A stretch of DNA of 64,000 nucleotides. Origin: Thermodesulfovibrio yellowstonii DSM 11347. Its GTDB lineage: Bacteria; Nitrospirota; Thermodesulfovibrionia; Thermodesulfovibrionales; Thermodesulfovibrionaceae. The notes beneath the pieces are model-generated. The model did not search any database, was not told the origin of the DNA, and saw only the letters and a list, made by a program, of their open reading frames with translations. Location: the NCBI RefSeq assembly GCF_000020985.1, contig NC_011296.1, forward strand, positions 982,001-1,046,000, in the 5' to 3' direction. Both the position numbers and the translations under genes were made by a program. Of this stretch, positions 53,224 through 57,415 are shown piece after piece (within the stretch, counting starts at the first letter, position 1; every line of letters starts with the position of its first letter).

Positions 53224-53499
53224 ATGAAGCTTCTTGATTTTCTGAGAGTTCTTGCAAGAGAGCTTATTGATAACGATTATAACGATGAAACATTAAAAGA
53301 TTTCTCTCTTCTGGACATTGATTTACATCAGATTAAAGAAGAACTGAATTTCATTGAAGGAAGCGAACTTCTTGACCGTGAAGAAATTGATATGATTAGA
53401 GCACTGCTTGTTTATTTACTCATGAGGGAAACAGAACTTCATGATGATGACATATATAGTTTCATTTTTAGTAAAGGGAAACAGATAGTATGGAATTGA
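53224..53499 (+). CDS. Small acidic protein between dprA and topA
   Basis: The 91-residue protein is unlike any family I can name with confidence. It is acidic, probably helical, and has no signal or membrane segment. The N-terminal MKLLDFLRVLARELIDNDYND and the middle LDIDLHQIKEELNFIEG suggest a small helical bundle. Proteobacteria carry the DUF494 gene smg at the same place between dprA and topA, so this could be a diverged equivalent, but I see no convincing sequence match. It begins directly after the dprA stop (AGGAGG is within the dprA tail) and overlaps topA by 10 bases. Confidence 0.6.
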   Translation: MKLLDFLRVLARELIDNDYNDETLKDFSLLDIDLHQIKEELNFIEGSELLDREEIDMIRALLVYLLMRETELHDDDIYSFIFSKGKQIVWN

Positions 53500-55823
53500 A
53501 AGGAAAAAATCTCATAATTGTTGAATCACCTGCAAAAGCAAAAACAATTAATAAAATCGTTGGGAAAGATTTTCAGGTGAAAGCATCTATTGGACATATA
53601 AAAGACCTCCCAGAAGACAGACTTGGTGTTGATATAGAAAAAGGATTTCAGCCTGACTATATCATAATTCCAGGTAAAGAAAAAATTGTAAAAGAACTCA
53701 AAGATTCAGCAAAGAATGCTCAAAAAATTTTTATTGCTACTGACCCTGATAGAGAAGGCGAAGCAATAGCCTATCATATTGCAGAAGAAATAAAAGTGCC
53801 AGAAAATAAAGTTTATAGAGCCATTTTTCATGAAATAACTCCAAATGCTGTGAAAGCAGCGATAGCAAATCCCTCAAAAATAGATATAAACAAAGTATAT
53901 TCACAGCAAGCAAGAAGAATTCTGGACAGACTTGTAGGTTATAATCTAAGCCCATTTCTATGGAAAAAGGTAAAAAAAGGACTTTCTGCTGGAAGAGTTC
54001 AGTCTGTTGCCTTAAGAATGGTTGTTGAGAGAGAAAAAGAGATTCTTATATTTCAGCCAGAAAATTACTGGACCATTGTTGGTAATTTTAAAAATGATGA
54101 AAATCTAAAAGAACTTCGTGCAAATCTTTATAAATATAAAGGTAAACTGATTATTGACCGTAAAGAAGAAAAAGCAAAATTTTTAATTACTGATGAAGAA
54201 ACTGCTCAAAAAATTATTGAAGAACTTAAAAAATTAAATTATATACTTACAAAAGTAGAAAAAAAGAAGAAAAAGAAAAATCCACCAGAACCTTTCAGAA
54301 CAGCAACACTGCAAGCACAGGCTTCTTCAACTTTGGGTTTTTCTCCTAAAAAAACCATGATGCTTGCACAACAGCTTTATGAAGGCATAGATATAGAAGG
54401 TACAAGGATCGGTCTTATCACGTACATGAGAACTGACTCAACAAGAGTTGCTGAAGAAGCAAAAAAATGGGCAAAAAATATCATAGAAAAAAATTTCGGC
54501 AAAGAGTTTGTTGGTAATCATAAAATCCACGAAACAAAAAAACAGAAAACTCCAATACAAGATGCTCACGAATGTATAAGACCTACTTATCCTGATAAAT
54601 CGCCTGAAAGCATTAAAAAATATCTTACAAAGGAGCAGTATAGTCTTTATAAGCTTATATGGGATAGGTTTCTGGCAAGCCAGATGTCGCCAGCTGAAGT
54701 AGAGCAAACTACATATATAATTGAAGATTTGGATAGTATTGCTCAATTTAGAGTAACTGGCTCTGTAATTACATTTCCAGGTTTTCTAATTATCTATAAA
54801 GACGAAGAATCCGAAGAAGATACTGTTTTACCTCAATTGAATGAAAAAACTTCACTCAAAATTTCAGAACTTGAAGCTCAAAAACATACAACAGAGCCAC
54901 CTCCAAGATATACAGAAGCAACTCTTGTTAAAGCACTTGAAGAAAAGGGAATCGGAAGACCATCCACTTACGCGACTATATTAAGCACTATTCAGGAAAG
55001 AGGATATGTAAAAAAAGTTAAACAAAAGCTTCAGCCCACCTACTTAGGCTTTGTTGTTAATGACCTTCTTGAAGAAAAATTTCCAGAACTGATGGATTAT
55101 AGCTTCACTGCAAAGATGGAAGAAGATCTTGATAAAATTTCATTAAATGAAGCAAAGTGGAATAAAGTAATAGAGGAATTTTATAAAGAATTTGAAAATG
55201 ACCTTGACCAAGCATCCAAAATATCAAAAGTAATAAAACCAAAGGAAATAAAAACCTCTTTTAAATGTGAAAAATGCGGCAAAGACATGGTTATAAGATG
55301 GAGTAAGGGAGTGCCATTTTTAGCATGTTCTGGATATCCTGAATGTAAAAATACCAGATCTTTAAATAATAATGAAAATGGATCTACAAAGAAAACCTTA
55401 GATAAAAAGTGTCCTCAATGCGGAGCTCAACTTGTAGTTAGAAATGGTAAAAGAGGAGAATTTATCGCATGTTCAAACTATCCTAAATGTAAATTCACCC
55501 AATCAATAACTGCACAAGTAAAATGTCCCCAATGTGGAGGTGATATTTTAAAAAAACAAACTAAAAAAGGTAGAACTTTCTGGGCATGTGCAAATTATCC
55601 AAAATGTAAATTTACACTTTCAAATGAACCAGTTCCTGCAGAATGTCCTAAATGTAAGTCTTCATATATGTTAAAAAAGAAAGATAGAAATGGAACTGAA
55701 TTTTTAATTTGCCATAATAAAGCATGTAAAGGTAAAATAGAAATAAAAGAACATTCAACTGGGACCGACCCTGCGCAACAGAAGGATGCAAACCCCGCCA
55801 GGTCCGGAAGGAAGCAACGGTAA
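53490..55823 (+). CDS. topA: DNA topoisomerase I
   Basis: A 777-residue type IA topoisomerase that relaxes negative supercoils. The TOPRIM motifs are IVESPAKAKTI near residue 10 and DPDREGEAIAYH near 87. The active-site Tyr lies in GLITYMRTDSTR near 313. Four C-terminal zinc-ribbon repeats follow from about residue 592 (starting at CEKCG, CPQCG, CPQCG and CPKCK). The last 20 residues are unusual: they are encoded by the 5' half of the SRP RNA gene at 55761-55823. The frame has no earlier stop. The gene overlaps the small upstream gene. Confidence 0.95.
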   Translation: MELKGKNLIIVESPAKAKTINKIVGKDFQVKASIGHIKDLPEDRLGVDIEKGFQPDYIIIPGKEKIVKELKDSAKNAQKIFIATDPDREGEAIAYHIAEEIKVPENKVYRAIFHEITPNAVKAAIANPSKIDINKVYSQQARRILDRLVGYNLSPFLWKKVKKGLSAGRVQSVALRMVVEREKEILIFQPENYWTIVGNFKNDENLKELRANLYKYKGKLIIDRKEEKAKFLITDEETAQKIIEELKKLNYILTKVEKKKKKKNPPEPFRTATLQAQASSTLGFSPKKTMMLAQQLYEGIDIEGTRIGLITYMRTDSTRVAEEAKKWAKNIIEKNFGKEFVGNHKIHETKKQKTPIQDAHECIRPTYPDKSPESIKKYLTKEQYSLYKLIWDRFLASQMSPAEVEQTTYIIEDLDSIAQFRVTGSVITFPGFLIIYKDEESEEDTVLPQLNEKTSLKISELEAQKHTTEPPPRYTEATLVKALEEKGIGRPSTYATILSTIQERGYVKKVKQKLQPTYLGFVVNDLLEEKFPELMDYSFTAKMEEDLDKISLNEAKWNKVIEEFYKEFENDLDQASKISKVIKPKEIKTSFKCEKCGKDMVIRWSKGVPFLACSGYPECKNTRSLNNNENGSTKKTLDKKCPQCGAQLVVRNGKRGEFIACSNYPKCKFTQSITAQVKCPQCGGDILKKQTKKGRTFWACANYPKCKFTLSNEPVPAECPKCKSSYMLKKKDRNGTEFLICHNKACKGKIEIKEHSTGTDPAQQKDANPARSGRKQR
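55709..55738 (+). promoter_or_regulatory. Candidate SRP RNA promoter within topA
   Basis: TTGCCA at 55709-55714 and TAAAAT at 55733-55738 are 18 bases apart, inside the coding region of topA. Transcription from it would begin near 55745 and give a leader of about 16 bases to be removed, probably by RNase P, as is known for E. coli 4.5S RNA. Confidence 0.45.
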
Positions 55824-55858
55824 GCATTTAATTCTGTGTGCCGCAGTAAGTCGGTCCC
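55761..55858 (+). ncRNA. ffs: Signal recognition particle RNA, 4.5S type
   Basis: The 98-base segment holds the universally conserved SRP domain IV, CCAGGTCCGGAAGGAAGCA, at 55798-55816, with the GGAA tetraloop and the asymmetric loop that bind Ffh. The ends GGGACCGAC (55761-55769) and GTCGGTCCC (55850-55858) pair perfectly. The RNA pairs with Ffh to target membrane proteins. The 5' 63 bases are also the last codons of topA. dnaX follows 18 bases later, the same order (scr, dnaX, yaaK, recR) seen in Bacillus subtilis. Confidence 0.95.
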
Positions 55859-55876
55859 TTTATTAAAGGAAACAAT

Positions 55877-57415
55877 ATGGAATATCTTGGACTTGCAAGA
55901 AAATATAGACCACAAAAATTTTCAGACCTTACAGGACAAGATGTTGTTATAAAAATTCTTCAAAACTCATTGCAAACTGGTAAAATTTCTCATGCCTATG
56001 TTTTTTCAGGACCAAAAGGTGTTGGTAAAACATCAACAGCAAGAATTCTTGCAAAAGCTTTAAACTGCATAGACTCCCAAAATAAGCCATGTGATAAATG
56101 TCCTTCATGTGTTGCAATAAAAGAAGGTAGAGCAATGAGTGTTATAGAAATAGATGCCGCATCCCATACTTCTGTAGAAAACATAAGAGATTTAAGAGAA
56201 AATATTCGTTATGCTTCTGCGGAAGGATTTTATAAAGTTTATATAATTGATGAAGCTCATATGCTCAGCCAATCAGCTTTTAATGCCTTTCTTAAAACCC
56301 TTGAAGAGCCTCCTCCACATGTAGTATTTGTTTTAGCAACAACTGAACCAAGAAAAATTCCCCTTACTGTGTTAAGTCGTTGTCAACATTTACAATTTAA
56401 AAGAATTCCGATTAATTTAATAAAACAAAGACTTCAATTTATCTGCAATCAGGAAAATATAAATGCTACAGAAGAAGCACTTTATACTATAGCTTCAAAT
56501 TCTGAAGGAAGTATGAGAGATGCATTGACAATGCTTGATCAAGTTACATCATTTACAGAAAATGTAACACAGGATAATGTAAATTTATTAATTGGTGGCA
56601 CAGATGTGAATGTGCTTTATGAACTTACAGAATGTTTAATTGATGGTAATAGAGAAAAAATTATTCTAAAAGTAGAAGAACTTAATAATTTTGGAACAGA
56701 TTTCAAACGACTTGTAGGTGACCTAATCAACTTTATAAGAAATACTCTTATTAGTAAAATTACAAAAAGTTTTAAACTTTACATAAGCGAATCAGAGGCA
56801 TCTTTGATAGAAAAGTTGAATAAAAAAACATCTGAGGAGCATTTAGTTGTTCTTTTAAAAGAATTGATTAATTCAGAATTTGCAATCAGGAGTTCATTTT
56901 TTCCCAGAGTTATTTTTGAAATAACTCTACTCAAACTCAGTTTTCTTGCTCATTTTAAAAATATAGATGATATTATAGAGGAAGCGAAAAAAAAATCACC
57001 ATTACAGCCTCCTTCTCTCCCTTTAAATAATAATGATGATATATCTTTATCTCAAAATTGGTTTAAATTTCTTGAAAAACTTGAAGCTCAAAATCATTTA
57101 CTTGCTATGAAAATCAAACATGCTAAAGTTAACTTTGCAGACAAAGAAATCCAACTTATTTATAATGGAGGAGCGTCATTTTATGCTGAATCAATAAAGG
57201 AAAATTTATCAGAAATTCAAAACATATTGAAAGAATTTATTTCTGATGTTAAGATAACTATACATTCTTATGAGGATATGAGCTCAAAGGATTCAAAACA
57301 GACAGAAAATTTAAAACAGGAGGCAATTAACCATCCAATTGTAAAAAAAACATTACAACTTTTTGAAGGAAGAATTTTCAATATAATACCTAAAAAAGGA
57401 GGCAATAATGTCTAA
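55877..57415 (+). CDS. dnaX: DNA polymerase III subunits gamma and tau
   Basis: The 512-residue clamp loader ATPase has GPKGVGKTSTARILAKAL as Walker A near residue 45. Its zinc site is built from Cys64, Cys73, Cys76 and Cys79 in the PCDKCPSC region, and IIDEAHMLSQSAFNAFLKTLEEPP is the Walker B to sensor part. Domain III ends near 365. A run of nine A residues (56987-56995) encodes Lys371-Lys373. One base added or lost there puts a stop about 12 codons later in both alternative frames, giving a product of about 382-384 residues that resembles gamma, while the full frame gives tau. The gene overlaps ybaB by eight bases. Confidence 0.95.
   Translation: MEYLGLARKYRPQKFSDLTGQDVVIKILQNSLQTGKISHAYVFSGPKGVGKTSTARILAKALNCIDSQNKPCDKCPSCVAIKEGRAMSVIEIDAASHTSVENIRDLRENIRYASAEGFYKVYIIDEAHMLSQSAFNAFLKTLEEPPPHVVFVLATTEPRKIPLTVLSRCQHLQFKRIPINLIKQRLQFICNQENINATEEALYTIASNSEGSMRDALTMLDQVTSFTENVTQDNVNLLIGGTDVNVLYELTECLIDGNREKIILKVEELNNFGTDFKRLVGDLINFIRNTLISKITKSFKLYISESEASLIEKLNKKTSEEHLVVLLKELINSEFAIRSSFFPRVIFEITLLKLSFLAHFKNIDDIIEEAKKKSPLQPPSLPLNNNDDISLSQNWFKFLEKLEAQNHLLAMKIKHAKVNFADKEIQLIYNGGASFYAESIKENLSEIQNILKEFISDVKITIHSYEDMSSKDSKQTENLKQEAINHPIVKKTLQLFEGRIFNIIPKKGGNNV

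Follow-up and report, generated by a model that had tools for sequence, protein, structure and literature searches.

A nine-adenine run at the core/tail border of Thermodesulfovibrio yellowstonii dnaX: a candidate slip site absent from its congeners

The gamma form of DnaX is made by frameshift, slippage or proteolysis in different bacteria, and the need for gamma is debated. In Thermus thermophilus, dnaX carries a run of nine A residues (A9) at which programmed transcriptional realignment takes place (Larsen et al. 2000, as presented in PMC1088944 and PMC5009743); slippage, a roughly 1:1 ratio and both proteins have been shown there, whereas the T. yellowstonii site is a candidate. The two systems have in common a sense-strand A9 in a one-frame tau gene with nearby stops in both shifted frames, a thermophilic host and two Lys tRNAs. 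The run lies about seven-eighths of the way through the Thermus gene, as compared with codon 371 of 512 in T. yellowstonii, whose congeners are without it. Of the features that mark a site of the Thermus type, the present gene has an in-frame run of at least nine A residues in the C-terminal half of dnaX, one frame for tau, nearby stops and genome-wide avoidance of A9, but not the conservation of the run in related species (0 of 13 congeners).

Three further systems are informative for comparison. In Escherichia coli dnaX, which uses a -1 frameshift, the short product ends at the equivalent border and a purine-rich element lies upstream, as here; unlike it, T. yellowstonii has neither the heptamer A_AAA_AAG nor a hairpin, its stop comes 11 codons on instead of one, and it has two Lys tRNAs instead of one. 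In Chlorobi and other bacteria, two-ORF dnaX genes contain A7-A10 runs (GeneTack survey, PMC3711429), and these resemble our case in that a poly-A slip site, here a candidate one, separates the parts for gamma and tau, although there tau requires a frame change, whereas in T. yellowstonii it is the zero-frame product. Finally, Caulobacter crescentus gamma is described as a product of tau proteolysis (as cited in PMC5009743), a gamma-like product being obtained there out of a single tau frame, as is proposed here, but without a recoding signal. Proteolysis of this type could apply to the congeners that are without A9.

The dnaX gene, its domain border and the shifted frames

The stretch of DNA analyzed here (the window, 64,000 nucleotides) comes from a genome of 2,003,803 bp on a single contig, and the relatives identified by sequence are Thermodesulfovibrio. 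The dnaX gene (55877..57415, on the + strand, as are all dnaX features given below) is a single open frame for a tau-type DnaX of 512 aa (TIGR02397, E 6.5e-132; Pfam delta2, AAA, lid and domain III). The gene order around it is topA, SRP RNA, dnaX, ybaB and recR, the last two being named from their sequences. Here topA (53490-55823) overlaps the SRP RNA gene (55762-55860) by 62 nt, with the C-terminus of TopA (...GTDPAQQKDANPARSGRKQR) encoded within the RNA gene, and all 13 congeners checked share this 62-nt overlap.

The clamp-loader core, which Foldseek matches to E. coli gamma/tau (e.g. 1jr3), ends with domain III (residues 230-363, 56564..56965, PF12169). In an AlphaFold2 model built with 37 order members as input (mean pLDDT 82), it is followed by a linker at residues 373-388 (56993..57040), predicted to be disordered with pLDDT < 50, and by the tau C-terminal tail at residues 388-512 (57038..57412), which can be aligned across the order and for which the models predict a folded part at 388-464 and a C-terminal helix at 487-496. 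Searched alone, the tail gives weak Foldseek matches, including chain E of 5fkv and 5fku, both E. coli Pol III complexes (117-120 residues, 114-116 columns aligned, E 0.17-0.35), which we have taken as the tau C-terminal domain.

A sequence-only reading of this DNA had placed A9 at 56987-56995 (56987..56995), as codons for Lys371-373 in the dnaX frame, at the border between core and tail and just 3' of a purine-rich stretch. All of this holds. The context is gcg AAA AAA AAA tca, the last residue of Pfam domain III is 363 and the low-confidence stretch of the model starts at 373, while purine-rich AGAGGAAG, weakly Shine-Dalgarno-like and made of Glu-Glu codons, occupies 56977-56984 (56977..56984). 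Moreover, this candidate slip site is the sole A9 on both strands of the window, for which dinucleotide shuffles give 37. If one A were lost or two gained, translation would end at the TAA at 57024..57026 with a product of 382 aa (predicted C-terminal peptide of the missing-A product, ...KKNHHYSLLLSL). With one A gained, it would end at the TAA at 57028..57030 with a product of 384 aa (predicted peptide ...KKKITITASFSPFK); the sequence-only reading had given about 382-384 residues for both shifts, but its stop for the extra A, put in the region of 57029-57031, was off by one. Given where domain III ends and where the models place linker and tail, a product of 382-384 aa would therefore retain the clamp-loader core and drop the polymerase-binding tail, which is to say that it would be gamma-like.

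Does the rapid closure of both shifted frames point to selection, as had been suggested? Evidently not: both frames are closed within 11 codons or fewer at 47% of codon positions in the ORFs of the genome and at 57-60% of those inside dnaX, and quick closure in T. yellowstonii dnaX is thus at chance level. A second run in the gene, A8 at 57343..57350, is not expected to slip, since A8 is not avoided in the genome.

Adenine runs among congeners, in the genome and in dnaX across the order

The sequence-only reading had proposed comparison across related genomes and had named loss of the run in close relatives as a result that would refute the idea, and such a loss is what we see. When the linker codons are aligned, none of the 13 congeners that yielded a dnaX sequence has A9 (two incomplete congener genomes gave no dnaX), including those that are 82-84% identical. 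Of the two closest, the one at 84% identity has aaa gaa aca at the site and the one at 82% has aaa gaa aaa atc, and both the length and the sequence of the linker are poorly conserved. As far as can be seen from these sequences, A9 is private to T. yellowstonii within the congeners compared. Four congeners (L011, L013, L014 and L015) have an in-frame A_AAA_AAG at one and the same place in the tail, 111 residues past domain III.

The genome as a whole contains 39 A/T runs of nine or more, of which 22 are sense A runs, 5 are T runs and 12 are intergenic by our ORF calls, some of the short ORFs possibly being spurious. Synonymous shuffling of a coding sample of 133,000 codons predicts 99 runs of A8, as against 105 observed, and 52 runs of at least nine A residues, which scales to approximately 200-240 for the genome; gene-by-gene shuffles give 38 per 113,000 codons. 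Taking the genome-wide 22 sense runs as the observed count, runs of at least nine are avoided about tenfold, while A8 is unaffected. The sample's own count, 1 observed against 52 expected, was set aside as biased, its stretches having been picked between known A9 runs. A similar drop is seen elsewhere in the order: the ratio of runs of at least nine to A8 is 0.04-0.18 in 20 genomes (from counts of A7, A8 and at least A9), and coding samples from ten relatives contain 1 run of at least nine where 21 are expected. Furthermore, while AAA makes up a fraction of 0.78 of Lys codons in the genome, only 1 of 67 Lys-Lys-Lys triples is all-AAA (32 expected), the sample again being biased and the one triple being that of dnaX, and in ten relatives it is 0 of 101. 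It looks as if all-AAA Lys triples were removed by selection, as they would be if they slipped. Indeed, the cliff at A9 agrees with what one would expect if A9 slips, and Baranov et al. (PMC1088944) attribute a drop of this kind to selection against slippage, at the level of either RNA or DNA. Two other sources of the avoidance are possible, namely the risk of indels in the DNA and ribosome sliding.

We next consider dnaX itself in 109 species of the order Thermodesulfovibrionales. Here we find 21 A9/A10 runs, every one of them C-terminal to domain III: 6 of the 21 lie within 60 residues past it (T. yellowstonii, G022, G034, G130, G131 and G123, with G130 and G131 sharing an identical linker site) and 15 lie in the tail; in many of these the sequence is xxA AAA AAA AAG, placed within a Lys stretch directly before the C-terminal helix. 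The ratio of runs of at least nine to A8 is 21:14 in the C-terminal halves as compared with a genomic 608:6160 (Fisher P 9e-14, odds ratio 15), the genome counts taking in non-coding and antisense runs. With one species per genus, the ratio is 15:9 in the C-terminal half (P 1e-10) and 4:2 in its first 40 residues (P 9e-4); these P values all ignore deeper relatedness. Against synonymous shuffles, there are 6 such runs in the linker where 2.8 are expected, 15 in the tail where 9.2 are expected (in total 21 versus about 12, a slight excess), and 0 in the core where 1.0 is expected. Taken together, the ratio and the shuffle counts mean that, across the order, A9 is not avoided in the C-terminal half of dnaX as it is elsewhere. 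No clear extra concentration of the runs at the gamma/tau border was found among these 21 runs from 109 species; their positions track Lys composition. At the 21 sites, both frames close slightly sooner than expected by chance (combined P 0.012, mean percentile 0.30).

Some individual sites deserve mention. At codon 489 of the L019 dnaX, an A10 is followed almost at once by stops in both shifted frames, with predicted products of 491 and 493 of 532 aa, and, of the A runs found across the order, this is the one whose sequence most resembles a programmed site. Nine tails (L218, L220, L227, L230, L232, L233, L234, L238 and L246), from several families and at 45-56% GC, contain xxA AAA AAA AAG, that is, A9 together with the E. 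coli heptamer; a slip there would cost only the last 30-50 residues. The heptamer was also considered as a C-terminal signal in its own right and was discarded: its enrichment in the C-terminal halves is mild (46 versus 22) and the core is enriched too (13 versus 5.7).

Is dnaX the only gene in which long A runs are tolerated? Control genes weaken this idea. Runs of at least nine number 6 in 30 coaBC orthologues (8.6 expected), 3 in 46 of recR (3.5 expected; all three in congeners) and 2 in 30 of lptD (3.8 expected), coaBC and lptD having been picked because T. yellowstonii has A9 in both, and there are none in rnr (9.1 expected), part of topA (8.9) and ybaB (1.4). Tolerance of A9 therefore varies by gene, and dnaX, though among the most tolerant, is not alone. 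The runs recur in coaBC as A9/A10 (L322, L331, L335, L345, L347 and L349), three of them at residues 196-207, possibly close to where CoaC joins CoaB, whereas the recR runs lie near codon 50 in congeners L008, L010 and L014 and T. yellowstonii is without one. We know of no short product of either coaBC or recR, recurrent as A9 is in both.

Tolerance of slippage as the proposed reading, and its alternatives

If anything slips on A9, RNA polymerase is a likelier agent than the ribosome, because the site (GCG AAA AAA AAA TCA) is without A_AAA_AAG and without a hairpin, ribosomes slide little on A9 and the genome has two tRNA-Lys genes (anticodons CUU and UUU), a pair which, in Thermus, may bear on the use of slippage instead of frameshifting (Atkins et al., PMC5009743). 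Namely, no stable hairpin was found in the 80 nt 3' of the run (-6.4 kcal/mol, z -0.31), and we dropped such a stimulator from consideration, as the folding is no better than that of shuffles. A -1 frameshift of the E. coli type, or ribosome sliding on A9, would find some encouragement in purine-rich AGAGGAAG, whose GAGG ends 7 nt 5' of the last A_AAA_AAA heptamer, and in a -1 frame that stops after 11 codons. However, this element is not conserved in congeners, the stop is not immediate, a CUU Lys tRNA is present, A_AAA_AAA is far less shift-prone in E. coli (PMC5009743), and in E. coli extract an A9 coding for three Lys residues slides little, A11 being needed (PMC4363877); we consider the ribosomal route very improbable. 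As an aside on the tRNA genes, a tRNA cluster holds a low-scoring tRNA-Cys-like gene (29.3 bits; L296 1646-1738, G000:C1:966729-966816) besides an ordinary tRNA-Cys.

How, then, is the run best understood? The claim of a gamma-like product made by slippage retains its site at the border, the avoidance of A9 and the two Lys tRNAs, while it has lost quick closure, which is chance, the run itself in congeners and the E. coli signals. The reading we favor, to which we give an even chance, is that A9 is a recently arisen, probably slip-prone and tolerated Lys run, which may leak some gamma-like protein and need not be programmed. According to it, a Lys-Lys-Lys codon run, so far in T. yellowstonii only, would have arisen recently in a fast-evolving, disordered linker; some slippage of RNA polymerase on it is probable, and an mRNA in which the run has 8, 10 or 11 A's would meet a stop within approximately 11 codons to give a gamma-like protein of 382-384 aa. 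If stable and functional, as we infer, this truncated DnaX would do no harm as a clamp-loader subunit or would be of mild use, and for this reason the run is probably tolerated. That slippage occurs at an appreciable rate we hold to be somewhat more likely than not, an estimate that overlaps with the one for programmed gamma below.

One alternative is programmed realignment of the Thermus kind, in which selection keeps A9 and sets the gamma/tau ratio and sites turn over fast between species. Run length and general place are as in Thermus (PMC1088944), A9 is avoided elsewhere in the genome, the two Lys tRNAs are present, the excess in the C-terminal half of dnaX is order-wide (odds ratio 15; 15 genera versus 9 with A8), and both the identical linker site of G130 and G131 and the L019 site with its immediate stops speak for it. 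Nevertheless, tolerance is favored over a programme by the absence of the run from all 13 congeners, by closure at chance level and by the similar tolerance of coaBC and recR, and the dnaX runs follow Lys composition, not the border. Simple tolerance, in turn, does not predict that long A runs in the C-terminal half of dnaX slightly exceed the shuffle expectation. Baranov et al. (PMC1088944) note that slip sites leading only to truncation are hard to judge comparatively. We think a programme possible but rather doubtful. The other alternative, that A9 is a silent Lys codon run, of chance origin and with too little slippage to be of consequence, would be in keeping with a Lys-rich linker, with AAA as the preferred Lys codon (78%) and with 21 further ORFs of the genome that contain sense A9 or A10 and mostly close both frames fast. 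The near-absence of all-AAA Lys triples here and in the ten relatives argues against it, and it seems to us equally open to doubt.

What would these readings mean? If the run is not programmed, it illustrates how little an A9 at a suggestive place says about recoding in an AT-rich genome, even where stops follow quickly. If slippage is confirmed, the mechanism is of the known Thermus kind. Of more interest is the turnover of A9 sites in dnaX across the order. In particular, one may tentatively picture dnaX in Thermodesulfovibrionales as repeatedly gaining and losing programmed A9/A10 slip sites, with gamma-like proteins arising from transcriptional slippage in many lineages and at shifting positions, the run of T. 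yellowstonii being a recent case that lies exactly at the border of gamma and tau. A lineage in which dnaX slip sites come and go, while the genome avoids them, would make it possible to test directly whether gamma is under selection or only tolerated.
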